A DNA stretch of 46,010 nt, taken from Oscillospiraceae bacterium (GTDB lineage Bacteria; Bacillota; Clostridia; Oscillospirales; Oscillospiraceae). Location of the stretch: positions 1 to 46,010 of the forward strand of contig JAFQIL010000003.1 in NCBI GenBank assembly GCA_017397565.1, read 5' to 3'. The notes below the pieces were generated by a model. The model was not told the DNA's origin. It ran no database searches and was given only the letters and a program-made list of their open reading frames with translations. This document shows positions 1 through 39,301 of this stretch, in pieces (position 1 is the stretch's first letter; each line of letters opens with the position of its first letter). The position numbers and the translations under genes are program-made.

Positions 1-99
1 GTAATACCTGTAGACTGGGATCCATTATTGTCGATGGGGGCAGGAACCCGTCAAGCGGTCAACCGCTTGCAGTGGGTCAGGTCATAGGTTCGAGTCCTA
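1..99 (+). repeat. 99-bp direct repeat, copy A (tRNA-tail element)
   Basis: These 99 bases recur without a mismatch at 265-363, a period of 264. The copy carries the end of a nested hairpin (the small hairpin CAGGTAATACCTG starts just left of the window edge), then a 7-bp hairpin CAAGCGG/CCGCTTG, then the T-arm of a tRNA. Because it begins inside a structure seen complete at 247-287, a further element copy probably lies just outside the window. No intact tRNA is formed: the bases left of the T-arm do not fold into an anticodon arm. Confidence 0.9.
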
Positions 100-111
100 T
101 ATCGTCCACCA
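74..111 (+). pseudogene. tRNA 3' end remnant (tRNA-Val-like)
   Basis: Positions 84-100 form a perfect 5-bp T-arm with loop TTCGAGT. They are followed by a 7-base acceptor strand ATCGTCC (101-107) and an encoded ACCA (108-111). A variable loop AGGTC (79-83) precedes the arm. The matching 5' acceptor, D-arm and anticodon arm are absent, so this is a tail without a head. From memory it resembles clostridial tRNA-Val tails, but the identity is not proven. It may be a 3' end regenerated when an element inserted downstream of a real tRNA outside the window. Confidence 0.6.
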
Positions 112-180
112 AAAGAAAAAGTCATCCCAATCGGGATGGCTTTTTTCTTTTGGTATGGTATTCAGATATAGGACTCGAAC
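84..180 (+). repeat. Long palindrome of tRNA 3' half with terminator core
   Basis: The tRNA tail, A-rich arm and hairpin GTCATCCC/GGGATGGC with T-run (121-146) are followed by the inverse of the same parts. TTTTCTTTTGGT mirrors the A-rich arm, and ATATAGGACTCGAAC (166-180) is the exact reverse complement of the T-arm segment 88-102. The left and right arms differ only around the acceptor end (155-165). The core should act as a rho-independent terminator, but the outer arms go well beyond what termination needs. Confidence 0.75.
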
Positions 181-287
181 AGGCCGGCGGTCGCAGACCG
201 CAACCAAGTGTCCGGTGGACACTTGGTTAGGCCGCGGAAGAGTCCTATGGATCGCAGGATGCAGGTAATACCTGTAGACTGGGATCC
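181..287 (+). ncRNA. Structured tRNA-trailing element, copy 1
   Basis: Nested stems are visible: GGCC (182-185) with GGCC (230-233); hairpin GCGGTC/GACCGC; a perfect 12-bp hairpin with 3-base loop at 202-228 around GTGTCCGGTGGACAC; GAGTCCTAT (240-248), able to pair with the upstream ATAGGACTC; and GGATC (249-253) with GATCC (283-287) enclosing CAGGTAATACCTG. The element after tRNA-Leu has the same order of stems with compensating base changes. I do not recognise it as a named RNA family. It could be transcribed tRNA trailer or a DNA-level mobile repeat. Confidence 0.55.
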
Positions 288-363
288 ATTATTGTCGATG
301 GGGGCAGGAACCCGTCAAGCGGTCAACCGCTTGCAGTGGGTCAGGTCATAGGTTCGAGTCCTA
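265..363 (+). repeat. 99-bp direct repeat, copy B
   Basis: Identical to 1-99. The match stops abruptly inside the T-stem after GTTCGAGTCCTA, where copy A continues into the acceptor strand and copy B runs into unrelated sequence. The sharp end inside a tRNA tail suggests a recombination or insertion boundary. Confidence 0.9.
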
Positions 364-17265: not shown

Positions 17266-18570
17266 ATGAAAAAGATTCGTGCCATCGTCATCGGCGCAGG
17301 AGGCCGGGGCTTTGCCTATGTTTATTATATGTCCTTTCTGCGGGATAAATATCAGGTGGTTGCTGTGGCAGATCCCAGCGAGCCTCAGCGTAGGAGCGTT
17401 CAGGAAATGTGGGGATTTTCAGAGGAAAATTGCTTCCACGATTGGCAAGAAATCTTAAGCAAACCGAAAATGGCGGATGTGGCTATCATTGCCACTCTGG
17501 ACGATATGCACCGGGAGCCGGCTTTGGCTGCCATCGAAAAGGGTTATGACATTCTGCTGGAAAAGCCGGTGGCACAAACGGCTCAGGAGTGTGTGGATAT
17601 TGCGCTGGCAGCGGAAAAGAAGGGTGTCAAGGTGCTGGTTTGCCATGTACTGCGGTACGCACCGTTTTTTGTTAGGGTAAAGGAGCTTCTGCGCTCTGGG
17701 ATCATTGGTAAGCCTATGACTATCAATATGGTGGAGGCTGTTGGAGACAACCATTACTCCAGAAGCTATATCCGTGGCAAGTGGCACAGCGAGAAGGAAT
17801 CTACACCTATGCTGCTGGCAAAGTGCTGCCATGACCTGGATTGCATTCAGTGGTTTATGGATCAGCCCTGTGAAAAGGTGCAATCCTTCGGTGAGCTGAC
17901 CTACTTCCGGGAGGAAAACGCTCCGGAAGGTGCGCCCGTCCGCTGCGCAGACGGCGGTTGTCCGGTGGGAGATACCTGTCCTTACGACTGCATGAAGATC
18001 TACTATAACGATAAGACCAAGGTGGCCTGGCGGAATCAGATCACCCGGGGCAGCACCAAAGATTATGATGCTACCGATGAAGAGGTTATGCATGCTCTGA
18101 AGACCACAGATTACGGTCTGTGTGTATTCCATGCCAACAACGATGTGGTGGACCATCAGACAGTTAATATGTACTTCCGGGGCGGCGCCACGGCAACCCT
18201 GACCATGAATGCCTTTAATAAGGGTGGACGGTATGTCCGCATTTACGGTACCAAGGGCGAATTACACGCCTATGCGTCTGCAGACGAGATCGAGGTGTAC
18301 ACCTTTGCGGATGAAAAGACCCAAAAGATCCCGGTAAAGGCTACAATCGAGAGCATTGAGGGCGGTCACGGTGGCGGTGATAGGGGTATCGTTGAGGAGC
18401 TTTACGATTATTTGAACGGTACCTATACCGGCTTCCAGGCGGCAGATATTATGACCTCCGTGAAAAATCATCTCATCGGCTTCGCGGCAGAAGAAGCAAG
18501 ACGTTCCGATACCGTTGTGGATCTGAACGAGTTTTTCAAACAGTACAATATGAAAAATGAATATATTTAG
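17266..18570 (+). CDS. Gfo/Idh/MocA-family oxidoreductase
   Basis: 434 residues. An N-terminal Rossmann domain starts with VIGAGGRG (8-15) and has EKP at 99-101. The C-terminal alpha/beta domain has CCHDLD (187-192), where such enzymes hold catalytic Asp/His residues. A Cys cluster (Cys227, 232, 238, 242) suggests a bound metal. The family oxidises or reduces sugars, inositols and glycoside rings with NAD(P). AAGGTG precedes the ATG by 8 bases. Next to GH127 and an AraC regulator, a role in sugar or glycoside oxidation is likely, but the substrate is unknown. A second, broken copy follows after 12 bases. Confidence 0.87.
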   Translation: MKKIRAIVIGAGGRGFAYVYYMSFLRDKYQVVAVADPSEPQRRSVQEMWGFSEENCFHDWQEILSKPKMADVAIIATLDDMHREPALAAIEKGYDILLEKPVAQTAQECVDIALAAEKKGVKVLVCHVLRYAPFFVRVKELLRSGIIGKPMTINMVEAVGDNHYSRSYIRGKWHSEKESTPMLLAKCCHDLDCIQWFMDQPCEKVQSFGELTYFREENAPEGAPVRCADGGCPVGDTCPYDCMKIYYNDKTKVAWRNQITRGSTKDYDATDEEVMHALKTTDYGLCVFHANNDVVDHQTVNMYFRGGATATLTMNAFNKGGRYVRIYGTKGELHAYASADEIEVYTFADEKTQKIPVKATIESIEGGHGGGDRGIVEELYDYLNGTYTGFQAADIMTSVKNHLIGFAAEEARRSDTVVDLNEFFKQYNMKNEYI

Positions 18571-18582
18571 GAGAAGAAATAT

Positions 18583-19884
18583 ATGAAACCAATATCAGTT
18601 GTTATTATCGGTGCAGGAAATCGAGGAGAAGTATATGCAACCCATATGGCTAAACTGCGGGAGCAGTTTCAGGTGGTTGCTGTGGCAGACCCGGACCCGG
18701 CTCGTTGTGAAAATATTCGCCGCTTGTTCGGTTTTTCAGAGGATGCCTGCTATCAGGATTGGCGCGATATCATGGCACAACCAAAAATGGCGGATCTTGT
18801 GGTGATTGCTACGGTAGATAATATGCACTACGCGCCGGCCTTGCAGGCTATCGAAAAAGGGTATGATCTGTTGTTGGAAAAGCCTGTTGCGCAGACGGTT
18901 CAGGAGTGCGTAGATATTGCATTAGAGGCGCAGAAAAAAGGTGTGAGAGTACTGGTTGCCCATGTTTTGCGCTATACACCATTTTTTGGCAAGGTTAAAA
19001 AACTTCTGATGGACGGTGCAGTCGGTGAAGTGATGTCCATCGCCCAGGTAGAGGCTATCGGAAATGATCACTATGGTCATGCCTATGTTCGGGGCAACTG
19101 GCACAATGAGCAGGAATCTACGCCAATTCTTTTGGCAAAGTGCTGCCATGATTTGGATATGATCCAGTGGCTTTTGGGGAAACCCTGTAGGCGCGTTCAG
19201 TCTTTTGGCAGTCTGACACACTTTGTAAAAGAAAATGCTCCGGCAGGTGCGCCTAAGCGCTGTGCGGACGGAGGATGCCCGGTAAGTGATACCTGCCCAT
19301 ATAATTGCCTGGATTTCTATTATGCAAAACAGGGGCATGTGGTTCTCAGAAAGAAAATTACCGGGGGTATCGCCAAAGGAAGCATTCCCACCGACGAAGA
19401 AGTGATGCAGGCTTTGAAAACAACGGACTTTGGTCTCTGCGTCTATCAGGCCAATAATAACGTGCCGGATCACTAAACAGTTAATATGGAATTTGCAGGC
19501 GGAGCAACCGCTACGCTGACGATGAATGCCTTTAATGAGGGCGGTCGCCATATACGTGTTTTCGGCACTAAGGGTGAACTATATGGATATTTGGAAGGGG
19601 AAAACATTACGCTGTTCACTTTTGAGGGCAAAAAGACCGAGCAGATTCCTATTCTGGAAGATGGCCAAATCATTACCGGCAACCATAGCGGTGGAGATGA
19701 GGGCATCATAAGTGAACTCTACGAGTTTCTTAGTGATACATATACGGGCTATCGGGCGGCAGATATCATGACATCTGTCAAGAATCATATGATTGGCTTT
19801 GCTGCGGAAGAGGGAAGACGCACCAATACCGTAGTTGACTTAGACGAATATTTTGCCCGGTACGGTATGAAAAACGAATATTAA
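18583..19884 (+). pseudogene. Gfo/Idh/MocA oxidoreductase interrupted by a single TAA
   Basis: A tandem paralogue of the preceding gene. Codons run in one frame from 18583 to 19884 (434 codons, the same length) except for TAA at 19474-19476. The paralogue has CAG in the same place (ACCATCAGACAGTTAATATG against ATCACTAAACAGTTAATATG), so a Gln codon, probably CAA, turned into TAA by one C-to-T change. The first part (297 residues) keeps GAGNRG, EKP and the Cys cluster; the rest (19477-19884) keeps the C-terminal sheet. Nothing else in it has decayed, so the loss is recent, is a sequencing error, or is read through. A downstream ATG at 19486 could start a fragment but lacks a good SD. Confidence 0.85.
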
Positions 19885-26326: not shown

Positions 26327-27472
26327 TTACACCTTGACAACACCGTTGAGCATAACTCTCTGGATGTTCATCCAGTGGTCTACAAAGATCAGGTCGGCAC
26401 GCAATCCAACGGCGATCTCACCGCGGTCATATAGACCTACGCAGCGAGCAGGATTATAGGAAGCAACCCGGAAAGCATCTACCAAAGACGCACCTGTGTG
26501 CTTCATCCAGTTCCGGCAGGCCACATTCAGCGTCAGCTTAGAGCCGGCAATATCACCCCATTTATCAAAGTTGATATCGGTGATATGCTCATAGCCGGGC
26601 GGATTGGGGGCATCGGCGTAGCTGCGATCAGAGATCAGAATGATTTTCTCATCACCCTTGATTTGTCGCACAAGCCGCAGCATATAGGGTGCCACATGGA
26701 TACCCTGACTGTCACAAATCAACTCCGCGTAAATGCCGCTGTTGTAATTGACAGCTTCATCCACACAGCAGCCCCGGCAGCCGGGATAATTGACAATGGT
26801 TCCGGTAGCGTTGGTGTGGTGAGTACCGATACACAGACCGTAGGGCATCAGCTTTTCAATCTGCTGAGGGGTAGCCTCGCTATGGGTCACGGCAAAACGG
26901 GTATTAGGGTTGGCTGCATGGGCGGCCTTTACAAAGTTTTCCACATTTTCCTGTTCCGGACCCAACCCCCAAACCAAAGCCAGTTCAGCACAAGCTTCGA
27001 TAATAGGTTCATAGTCCTCAGGGATAATGGGCTTGTTATTCCAGGGATTGGCGGCCCGGTTTGAGCCGTAGGCGGGATTGATGTATGGACCTTCAAAGTA
27101 CACACCGGCAATATTGCCGCCATCTGGGTGAGCCATGGCTTCCCGAATGTTTGCTGCCATCTGAATGTACTCTTCCTTGGTCATTCTGGGATAGGAGGCA
27201 GGAAGCACAGTAGTGGTACCGTGCTCCAGATGGTACAGACATCCGGGAATGGGGTTCTGCCATATCCGGTAATTACCACCGGTGTGGGTGTGGATATCCA
27301 CCAGGCCGGGGCCGACATAGGCACCTTTCGCATCCAGAATCTCACAACCCTCCGGGATGGGAGTGTTACGCATTTCGCCAAATCCGGTAATCTTACCGTC
27401 CTCTATGAACAAAACCGCATCGGGGATCATGTGGTCACGCATAATCAGCTCTGCGTTAACAATAGCAAGCAT
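26327..27472 (-). CDS. NagA-like N-acetylglucosamine-6-phosphate deacetylase paralogue 1
   Basis: 381-residue amidohydrolase of the NagA type. HTH at 61-63 sits in GLVDIHTHTGG; Glu127 in YFEGPY is the family's metal ligand; His197 (VTHSEA) and HH at 218-219 (GTHHTNATG) follow; Asp282 (LISDRSY) is the likely catalytic acid; and GSKLTLNVA matches the late NagA motif. Expected reaction: removal of acetyl from GlcNAc-6-P or a related amino sugar. Last gene of the minus-strand operon, 21 bases after its close paralogue, with AAAGGAGG before the ATG. Two different NagA-like copies side by side suggest different substrates. Confidence 0.85.
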   Translation of the reverse strand: MLAIVNAELIMRDHMIPDAVLFIEDGKITGFGEMRNTPIPEGCEILDAKGAYVGPGLVDIHTHTGGNYRIWQNPIPGCLYHLEHGTTTVLPASYPRMTKEEYIQMAANIREAMAHPDGGNIAGVYFEGPYINPAYGSNRAANPWNNKPIIPEDYEPIIEACAELALVWGLGPEQENVENFVKAAHAANPNTRFAVTHSEATPQQIEKLMPYGLCIGTHHTNATGTIVNYPGCRGCCVDEAVNYNSGIYAELICDSQGIHVAPYMLRLVRQIKGDEKIILISDRSYADAPNPPGYEHITDINFDKWGDIAGSKLTLNVACRNWMKHTGASLVDAFRVASYNPARCVGLYDRGEIAVGLRADLIFVDHWMNIQRVMLNGVVKV

Positions 27473-27493
27473 GTTAATTCCTCCTTTGAGGTC

Positions 27494-28633
27494 TTACTGC
27501 ACTTTGCCGCCCAGCATGACTGTGGAAACATTCATTTTATAGTCCACAAAAATCAAGTCAGCACGCTTACCGACGGCGATCTCGCCCCGATCCAGGAAAC
27601 CAACAGCCCGGGAGGGGTTGTAAGAAGCAAACTTGAATACATCCACGATGGATGCGCCGGTGTGTTTCATCATATTCCGACAGGCGACCTCCAGAGTCAG
27701 CTTGGAGCCCGCGATCTCGCCTTCAAAGTCGAAGCAAAGATCGGTAACGCCATCATAGCCTTCCGGAGTGGGACCCTGGAACCAGCAGGCATCAGAGATG
27801 AGGATCAGACGGTCATCGCCCTTGATCTTCCGGATCAGCCGCTGCATATAAGGATCTACATGGATACCACGGCTGTCGCAGATCATTTCTGCGTAAATCT
27901 CCCGGTTGTAGTTGACAGTTTCATCAACACAGACACCCCGGCACTCGGGATACATGGGGCGGTCACCGGTGGCGTTGGTGTGGTGGGTGCCAATACACAG
28001 ACCGTAGGGCATCAGCGCCTCGATCTGCTGAGGGCTTGCCTCACTGTGACCAACAGCAAAACGGACATTGGGGTTGTATGCCTTGGCATCCTGAACAAAG
28101 CTTTCGATATTCTCACGCTCTGGGGCAACGACCCAAACCCGGACATCCTCACCGGCAGCTTCGATCAAAGCTTGATAATCTTCCTTGCAAACAGGTCCCT
28201 TCCAGGGATTGTTTTCCCGATCGGCACCAAATTTGGGGTTCATATAGGGGGCTTCCATGTAAAAACCGGCAATATTAGCACCGTCAGGTTCTTTCATGGC
28301 GGATTGTACAAGGGCGGTCTGCTCCAGCAGCTCAGCTCTGGGGGTATTGAAATACAGGGTGGCCAAAATACTGGTGGTGCCGTGGGACAGATGGTACTTT
28401 GCGGCTTCCAAGGGCTCCTGGTTGAACCAGTGGCAGTCGCCGGCATGACAGTGGATATCCACAAGACCGGGACCTACAAACCTGTCCTGTGCGTCGATGA
28501 TTTCGCAGCCCTCCGGGATGGGGGTAGTGCGCATTTCACCGAAACTGCGGATTTTTCCGTCCTCTACGAACAAAACGGCATCAGGGATCAAATGGTCACG
28601 CATGACCAAGGTGGCGTTTTTAATGGCAATCAT
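27494..28633 (-). CDS. NagA-like deacetylase paralogue 2
   Basis: 379 residues, colinear with the neighbour throughout. The HxH is HCH in GLVDIHCHAG, the metal Glu is in YMEAPY (the usual G is A), His is in VGHSEA and GTHHTNATG, and the catalytic Asp is in LISDACW. The region after the His pair, CRGVCVDETVNYN, is shared with paralogue 1 but is not part of the NagA motifs I know. It likely deacetylates an amino-sugar phosphate that differs from that of paralogue 1. GAGGT lies 8 bases upstream of the ATG. Confidence 0.84.
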   Translation of the reverse strand: MIAIKNATLVMRDHLIPDAVLFVEDGKIRSFGEMRTTPIPEGCEIIDAQDRFVGPGLVDIHCHAGDCHWFNQEPLEAAKYHLSHGTTSILATLYFNTPRAELLEQTALVQSAMKEPDGANIAGFYMEAPYMNPKFGADRENNPWKGPVCKEDYQALIEAAGEDVRVWVVAPERENIESFVQDAKAYNPNVRFAVGHSEASPQQIEALMPYGLCIGTHHTNATGDRPMYPECRGVCVDETVNYNREIYAEMICDSRGIHVDPYMQRLIRKIKGDDRLILISDACWFQGPTPEGYDGVTDLCFDFEGEIAGSKLTLEVACRNMMKHTGASIVDVFKFASYNPSRAVGFLDRGEIAVGKRADLIFVDYKMNVSTVMLGGKVQ

Positions 28634-38874: not shown

Positions 38875-38957
38875 GCGAGAGTGTTGGAATGGTAGACAAG
38901 CACGTTTGAGGTGCGTGTGGTTACGCCGTGTGGGTTCGAGTCCCATCTCTCGCACCA
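38875..38957 (+). tRNA. tRNA-Leu(GAG)
   Basis: 83 bases, class II. Acceptor GCGAGAG (38875-38881) pairs with CTCTCGC (38947-38953), followed by encoded ACCA. The anticodon stem CACGT/GCGTG encloses loop TTGAGGT with anticodon GAG at 38908-38910. A variable arm TGGTTACGCCG follows, and the T-arm is GTGGG-TTCGAGT-CCCAT. It reads CUC and CUU. Confidence 0.95.
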
Positions 38958-39015
38958 AAAAAGAGAGGGTACGCAAGTACCCTCTCTTTTTTGGTGCGAG
39001 AAAGGACTCGAAAGA
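38941..39015 (+). repeat. Palindrome of tRNA-Leu 3' half with terminator core
   Basis: After ACCA comes a terminator with 16-bp stem (six A and GAGAGGGTAC, loop GCAA, GTACCCTCTC and six T; 38957-38992). It is followed by GGTGCGAG (38993-39000), the inverse of the tRNA end CTCGCACC, and GGACTCGAA (39004-39012), the inverse of TTCGAGTCC in the T-arm. The design is the same as at 84-180 but copies a different tRNA. Confidence 0.8.
38980..39004 (+). repeat. 25-bp direct repeat, copy A
   Basis: CCCTCTCTTTTTTGGTGCGA and five further bases recur exactly at 39165-39189, a period of 185. Copy A is the right arm of the tRNA-Leu terminator palindrome. Confidence 0.9.
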
Positions 39016-39129
39016 GCGACCCGACCGAAGGGAGGGTAAGGAAGTGTCCGGGGGACACTTCCTTAGCTCGTGGGAGAGTCCCTCGGATTTGAGACGCATC
39101 CGGTATGGATGTGGATCAAATCCGAGTAA
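39004..39129 (+). ncRNA. Structured tRNA-trailing element, copy 2
   Basis: Same order of stems as at 181-287: GGACTC (39004-39009) with GAGTCC (39076-39081); GAGC (39014-39017) with GCTC (39066-39069); a perfect 12-bp hairpin with loop GGG at 39038-39064 around GTGTCCGGGGGACAC; and GGATTTGA/TCAAATCC enclosing CATCCGGTATGGATG (39085-39125). Compared with copy 1, GGCC/GGCC became GAGC/GCTC and ACC/GGT became AGG/CCT, so pairing is kept while bases change. I know no named family for it. It may be tRNA trailer RNA or a DNA repeat acting as a cruciform. Confidence 0.6.
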
Positions 39130-39164
39130 GTTTCGATAATAGAGAAGTAAAAAACGGGGAGAGG

Positions 39165-39189
39165 CCCTCTCTTTTTTGGTGCGAGAAAG
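39165..39189 (+). repeat. 25-bp direct repeat, copy B
   Basis: Exact second copy of 38980-39004. With the preceding GAGAG it forms a new terminator-like hairpin (GAGAG-GCC-CTCTC plus six T). It marks the right boundary of the element. Confidence 0.9.
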
Positions 39190-39301
39190 AACACGTAAAA
39201 ATTGCCCCAGTCCTCAACCGGTTTAAAAGTGACCATAAAGAATTGCCGTTGGATTCATTTTGTGCTATCATGGATCTATCTATAGTAACAGGAGTTTGCC
39301 G

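Follow-up and report, generated by a model that had tools for sequence, protein, structure and literature searches.

Hairpin repeats carrying copies of tRNA 3' ends in gut Oscillospirales, and their possible nature as gene-less integrating elements

Hairpin repeats which carry copies of the 3' end of a tRNA gene are a real, order-wide family in gut Oscillospirales, and two of them lie in the 46,010-nt stretch of an Oscillospiraceae genome analysed here (the window, which is the start of a contig in an incomplete assembly of 1.8 Mb in 89 contigs and 60.55% complete). From their arrangement we think there is an even chance that they are non-autonomous DNA elements without genes which integrate at the T-loops of tRNA genes, and also in 5S rRNA genes. 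A description of such elements was not found in the titles and opening lines of abstracts of the literature searched.

The full unit consists of the tRNA gene, a terminator, an inverted copy of the T-arm and part of the acceptor (tail'), a folded module (M) and, often, a second direct copy of the tRNA tail with or without a terminator. The original prediction had described a conserved element with a common core and stem order in two copies, and a covariance model of the module type concerned (type A, see below) matches both (Table 1). The pair changes it named are present, with AACC/GGTT against AAGG/CCTT at the core, GGCC/GGCC against GAGC/GCTC, and differing outer stems in the last hairpin, and the terminator does precede the element at tRNA-Leu(GAG). 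Attachment to two different tRNAs holds for the intact tRNA-Leu, but copy 1 stands behind a displaced tRNA-Val tail only; no intact tRNA was found at 84-111, and tRNA-Leu is the sole tRNA reported by ARAGORN in the window. The tRNA-Leu module is made up, in order, of an outer stem, a variable hairpin, the core hairpin and a last hairpin, with tail' as the left strand of the outer stem. The sequence at 39165-39198 looks like the beginning of a second, broken unit. A 99-nt direct repeat adjoins the displaced tRNA-Val tail, so that copy 1 resembles one member of an array which the contig end has truncated; the repeat itself suggests that the array is a tandem one. Rfam at gathering score matched only the tRNA in the window and in 20 related loci from across the order, with 19 bits for the best sub-threshold match to the element.

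Table 1. Features of the two type A copies in the window and their surroundings.
Feature	Positions	Strand	Basis
tRNA-Leu(GAG), host gene of the element	38875..38957	+	ARAGORN; Rfam tRNA
Intrinsic terminator; together with the tRNA tail a perfect inverted repeat of 25 nt	38958..38992	+	Repeat search; sequence
tail', reverse complement of tRNA-Leu acceptor/T-arm (GGTGCGAG..GGACTCGAA) with a short gap	38993..39012	+	Sequence; match statistics
Type A module M	39004..39131	+	Covariance model match 127.7 bits; training row of the model
Outer stem GGACTC/GAGTCC of the tRNA-Leu module	39004-39009 / 39076-39081	+	
Core hairpin AAGGAAGTGTCC-GGG-GGACACTTCCTT	39038..39064	+	Sequence; exact-core counts
Last hairpin (P4), invariant G-T pair, covarying outer stem	39082..39126	+	Repeat search; alignment
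Terminator 3' arm and tail', probably where a second, degenerate unit begins	39165..39198	+	91% direct repeat of 38980-39013
Displaced copy of the tRNA-Val(GAC) 3' end	79..111	+	Sequence; ARAGORN; tail identical to tRNA-Val in L011, L157
Copy 1 terminator	112..154	+	By eye
Copy 1 tail' (reverse complement of the tRNA-Val T-arm)	164..180	+	By eye
Copy 1 type A module	171..294	+	Model match 88.5 bits; outside the training set
Last hairpin and second tRNA-Val tail copy	265..363	+	Direct repeat of 1-99 (99 nt)

In the loci which we read, the units are about 100–300 bp long and are judged to be gene-less by this length, and a hairpin with a CCGGTGG-like loop is common to several module types. At least 11 of 14 T-arm positions are complemented downstream in 92 of 193 tRNA 3' contexts (a sample enriched for the element), compared with 1/193 when the downstream DNA is shuffled. 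In these 92 contexts, which were chosen for a good match to their own tRNA, the own tail scores above the mean of the other tails in all 92 and is outscored by none of the 96 tails in 59; another tail fits better in 33, and we count this against integration. The second direct tail starts at tRNA positions 55–59 in 58 of 65 cases (at position 56 in 30), tail' is also present in 63 of the 65 cases with a downstream direct tail, and nine of these second tails are preceded by TGCAAA. A clean second tail is missing in many type A copies, which also counts against integration. By eye, tail' with all or part of M follows the tRNA in 15 of the 30 tRNA contexts read in this genome, one of which is cut by a contig end right behind tail'. 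We note that candidate second tails were seen 0.9–1.2 kb away in L134 and L128.

The 19-nt core AAGTGTCCGGNGGACACTT has six exact copies in this genome, with none for the reversed control, and is no chance repeat. It is present in 49 of 101 same-genus genomes (our own included) and in eight of the 28 good ones, with the reversed control at zero in every same-genus row listed; among the named genomes listed, the matches are mostly to records named Oscillospiraceae or Ruminococcus. Forty-nine of the 147 distinct exact-core copies in the collected loci have an intact tRNA upstream on the same strand, at 67–98 nt (median 85) and with 21 anticodons between them, and further copies directly behind tRNAs, as the original prediction expected, therefore exist. 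A tRNA lies downstream on the other strand in a single case, so that 49 of the 50 tRNA-linked copies share the strand of the tRNA. The other copies include 23 with a T-arm complement and no intact tRNA in range, seven with the complement of a 5S rRNA tail, 26 which fit an intergenic repeat pattern of Ruminococcus-named and similar genomes, and a mixed remainder of 41 with likely chance matches in distant phyla. The core by itself is thus an imperfect marker, and copies away from tRNAs, which the prediction held would speak against it, do occur in part, both at 5S rRNA genes and at places without a nearby tRNA. In L048, L049, L051, L117 and other Ruminococcus-named loci the core forms part of the intergenic repeat ..GAGCATAGCGAGGGTA-core-TAGTGCTTGCACCGGGGAAGTTTATT (with variants) with no tRNA, and by eye this repeat sits near other intergenic repeats.

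The type A alignment A1 was made from 47 of 57 non-redundant copies (61 found), with ten left out beforehand because the last hairpin was incomplete or the copy too close to another. The covariance model built from it finds 12 places in this genome at E <= 0.1, of which ten, including both window copies, fall below E 1e-4 (several of the 12 are training rows). Among seven places whose context was determined, three share their locus with an intact tRNA and four do not. Across 202 genomes of the order (our own included) the model reached nine other genomes at E <= 0.001 under strict filters; type A is local, and elsewhere other module types prevail. Type A copies are also present in a cultured carrier, the genome named Pseudoflavonifractor sp. 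MSJ-30 (L097).

The wider family was traced with a spaced pattern of tail, CCA, 25–55 nt and GGAYTCGAA, which is found in 68 of 295 genomes and 38 of 148 genera of the order with a reversed control of zero in the rows listed, and where at least one of the 68 (L267, genome G335) is by eye a neighbouring tRNA gene. In a sample of the phylum the pattern is found in 10 of 329 genomes, comprising this genome, three which by eye are neighbouring-tRNA cases, and six others. Seven loci from these six include four (L292, L293, L294 and L302) that have a module and carry the same tail twice, one (L297) with a module and a different tail-like end, and two (L295 and L296) with neither module nor second tail. 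The difference between the order (68/295) and elsewhere (6/325) has a p of about 1e-17.

Occupancy was compared at the orthologous tRNA-Leu(GAG) site, where 12 rows are filled and 10 are empty (the truncated remnant in L185 was counted as filled, and L208 was not caught by the pattern). On a tree of these 22 rows the filled or empty label needs six changes, at least three of which are forced by well-supported branches, and is unclustered with 97 of 500 shuffles as low; the tree leaves out L191, L192, L194, L198, L201, L209 and L210 because of long branches or seemingly non-orthologous upstream DNA. Even close sisters such as L186 and L188, which match over about 147 nt only, have different downstream DNA, and hence an exact empty-site junction was not obtained. 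By eye there are tandem units in L135, L186, L192, L198, L205, L239, L240, L246 and L258–L260, with near-identical units within arrays. Two tRNA-Arg loci of this genome, L165 and L171, have by eye tail'-M-tail in common and not the terminator, which would mark tail'-M-tail as the moving unit. The type A architecture is also kept at tRNA-Leu(GAG) in many species while the letters of the terminator and stems vary, and such retention at one tRNA could also mean a host function.

The paired columns of type A covary strongly. In A1, 95.5% of cells are paired compared with 74.5% when shuffled, and changes on both sides of a pair occur in 300 cells, whereas shuffled alignments give 78 on average and slid controls reach no more than 85 (these controls took the place of R-scape); the covariation above background that the original prediction looked for is therefore present. 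The last hairpin contains an invariant G-T pair in 47/47 rows and leans to G-U, with 13 against four A-C in 37 sequences. The M stems as a whole are different, with 1671 Watson-Crick, four G-U and three A-C pairs in 100 units, when the adjacent terminators of 100 units have 1344, 30 and 5, respectively (the ratio of G-U to Watson-Crick differs at Fisher p 2e-7, whereas that of G-U to A-C, 4:3 versus 30:5, does not differ significantly, with p 0.11). G-U pairs should be acceptable in an RNA whose selection acts on a single strand, as they are in the terminators, and the near absence of G-U from M stems favours folding, or the making of palindromes, at the DNA level, though a younger age of these stems could be another cause. 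Furthermore, because tail' tracks its own tRNA, the apparent compensation in the outer stem would largely be copied tRNA sequence, and this part of the covariation seems to be inherited from the tRNA. This weakens the predicted selection on structure, as does the scarcity of G-U in M (4 vs 30).

Neither Y1 transposases (30 of 68 pattern-positive and 80 of 227 pattern-negative genomes, counted by hand, p 0.20) nor reverse transcriptases (19 of 68 and 62 of 227, p 1.0) are associated with the spaced pattern in the genomes of the order, which are incomplete, and both a RAYT-like Y1 transposase and a reverse transcriptase were rejected as the source. An autonomous copy with a recombinase gene was not met among the loci that were read. 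Carriage by phages or plasmids was likewise rejected, as type A has no blastn match in the phage or plasmid records. IMG/VR contains 22 core matches, two of them of the tRNA type (L219 and L231), and three matches to the type B hairpin, of which L235 and L237 belong to the tRNA type, both close to where the retrieved stretch ends. By eye, most of the other core matches in this collection (L213–L218, L220–L230 and L232–L234) have one common, conserved context, mostly TTCGAA-core(C)-TCC, which is unrelated to tRNAs. A gene with a Phage_integrase domain adjoins tRNA-Trp in this genome (L160, G000:C29), and on another contig (L309, G000:C40) there is a Trp tail with terminator, tail' and M, joined at T54 and with TGCAAA in front. 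The frames beside this displaced element look phage-like by eye; Pfam assigned one to no family and the other to leucine-rich repeats, and confirmed no phage gene in them. We infer that a prophage may have entered the same tRNA-Trp T-loop and pushed an older element away, a reading which joins two separate contigs with the tRNA on one and the displaced element on the other.

Integration is suggested by the one-strand position of units behind tRNAs, the tRNA-specific tail' and the T-loop starts of the direct tail, by the tandem units, the patchy occupancy at tRNA-Leu and the M stems nearly without G-U, and by the tail'-M-tail common to L165 and L171, the integrase gene at tRNA-Trp and the displaced Trp tail. 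The elements would enter tRNA genes at the T-loop, and 5S rRNA genes at a comparable place, through a recombinase which may recognise M and the tail'/tail inverted repeats as folded or palindromic DNA. This would probably be a tyrosine recombinase, either host-borne or acting in trans from prophages or ICEs, which joins the M unit to the T-arm; the tRNA would remain intact, the old tail would be displaced downstream, and the outer stem would follow each tRNA because it is copied from that tRNA. The lack of an enzyme association, the fact that no autonomous copy was met, the inverted M at 5S loci and the missing type A matches in phage and plasmid records weaken this reading, as do the G-U lean and invariant G-T pair of the last hairpin, which are as expected in an RNA. 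The step from pattern to mechanism is therefore one to which we give about even odds. It is unlikely, if conceivable, that the elements form an integron-like system across much of the order, in which tRNA T-arms are the attachment sites and gene-less cassettes, each a replacement tRNA tail with a terminator and a folded hairpin site, would be captured, stacked and renewed tRNA by tRNA by a recombinase reading single-stranded folds.

The original prediction offered three readings, of which a mobile repeat targeting tRNA 3' ends fits best and a new tRNA-linked RNA less well. The latter would be a functional structured RNA in the tRNA trailer, with M made by read-through from the operon and taking part in tRNA processing or decay, or soaking up tRNA 3' fragments via tail' as a sponge. 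We regard this as improbable, even though it would agree with the strong covariation, with the constant type A architecture at tRNA-Leu(GAG), with the shared strand of 49 of 50 tRNA-linked copies, with the G-U excess of the last hairpin and with the observation (by eye) that the T-arm complement is kept while the acceptor complement decays. M sits behind a terminator, however, and has stems nearly without G-U overall; at 5S loci it runs, by eye, in the opposite orientation to the gene (in some of them as tandem copies), different module types occupy the same place, sister species are filled or empty, and there are tandem copies and copies away from any intact tRNA.

Two further explanations concern the copying of the tail. 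During replication, the nascent strand could snap back at the terminator palindrome, copy the tail backwards to the T-arm hairpin, snap back again and copy forwards, as in the model of a miniature tandem inversion duplication, with M the junction which was kept palindromic. This would account for the tail-tail'-tail order, with T-loop and terminator as turning points, would follow each tRNA without an enzyme, and would allow changes on both sides of a stem with few G-U intermediates; in addition, the stretch from T54 to the end of tail' is at least 90% palindromic, ungapped, in 5 of 100 units, and L255 has tail' without a recognisable M. M, however, is a recognisable family common to tRNAs and species, which a copying error would not supply, and a tail-tail'-tail skeleton without M or a remnant of it was not seen by eye in the order-wide loci displayed; we regard this explanation as quite improbable. 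More improbable by far is a retro-copy, in which the folded terminator of the tRNA transcript would serve as primer for a reverse transcriptase, the tail would be copied up to the modified T-loop bases and the product would be integrated. L148 and L151 do contain (by eye) a perfect palindrome from T54 through the terminator to tail', and 7 of the 65 direct tails begin at position 59, which immediately follows the base whose methylation blocks reverse transcriptases, but 46 of the 65 begin at 55–57, inside the modified loop, and there is no association with reverse transcriptase genes.

Few sites are used for docking by mobile DNA as commonly as tRNA genes. Prophages, ICEs, IMEs and islands integrate at the 3' end of tRNA-like genes, leaving the gene whole and making direct copies of the 3' end, and the units described here share these features, including a direct repeat which starts at a crossover within the tRNA gene (58/65 at positions 55–59). 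They differ in that those elements carry integration genes and cargo over kilobases, whereas our units are about 100–200 bp long and, judged by length, carry no integrase or any other gene, have an inverted tail copy and use many tRNA families within one genome simultaneously. Among those known integrative elements are the ssrA islands of Dehalococcoides, which use the tmRNA 3' end (PMC3146451). REP and REPIN palindromes moved by RAYT transposases (PMC3733652) are like our units in being short, intergenic, hairpin-forming, probably non-autonomous and of several families per genome; our units have no Y1 association, are bound to tRNA and 5S genes and carry the sequence of those genes, and the REP tags GTAG and CGTC, looked for at the stem foot up to 8 nt from the stem, each occur in 1 of 56 type A hairpins. 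Compared with integron attC sites and cassette arrays (PMC2727003), the units similarly keep structure over letters, have ends which are inverted repeats matching the target, and form tandem arrays; they lack cargo, and the target is a tRNA T-arm. In none of 100 units were both of the boxes RYYYAAC and GTTRRRY found at the stem base. These boxes, as RYYYAAC..GTTRRRY, define attC sites, and judged on such defining letters our units belong with neither attC sites nor tagged REPs.

A widespread gene-less element which copies host tRNA 3' ends both ways would show the re-use and upkeep of tRNA docking sites, and could be one reason why tRNA loci of gut Oscillospirales behave as hot spots. The roughly one hundred folded candidate sites also form a natural collection for tests of single-strand recombination. 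It should be noted that covariation in tRNA-linked repeats may come from the tRNA or from the DNA level, and need not signify a functional RNA.

By eye, the 5S rRNA 3' ends in L004, L018, L022, L056, L116 and L138 have copies of the tail, terminator and core hairpin. A nearly identical terminator-like sequence, AAAAGAAACGACAATTTTCG.., stands behind the CCA of different tRNAs in L163, L164 (behind the second tail), L207 and L248, which are from different genomes, one of them in another family of the order. The palindrome TATCGAGTGTTCATAAC..GTTATGAACACTCGAT (with variants) comes immediately after the CCA in a number of different tRNAs or tail copies (the right flank of L171, and L270, L272–L276 and L278), and we dropped the L171 flank as an original terminator since it is this palindromic end, repeated behind several tRNAs. 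The frame beside the palindrome in L275 and L276 resembles, by eye, what we take to be the C-terminus of a large serine recombinase. Elsewhere in the window, tandem duplicated stretches, mostly of 71–80% identity, are located at 17327-19544 and 26401-28633, with spacings of about 1317 nt and about 1164 nt, respectively.
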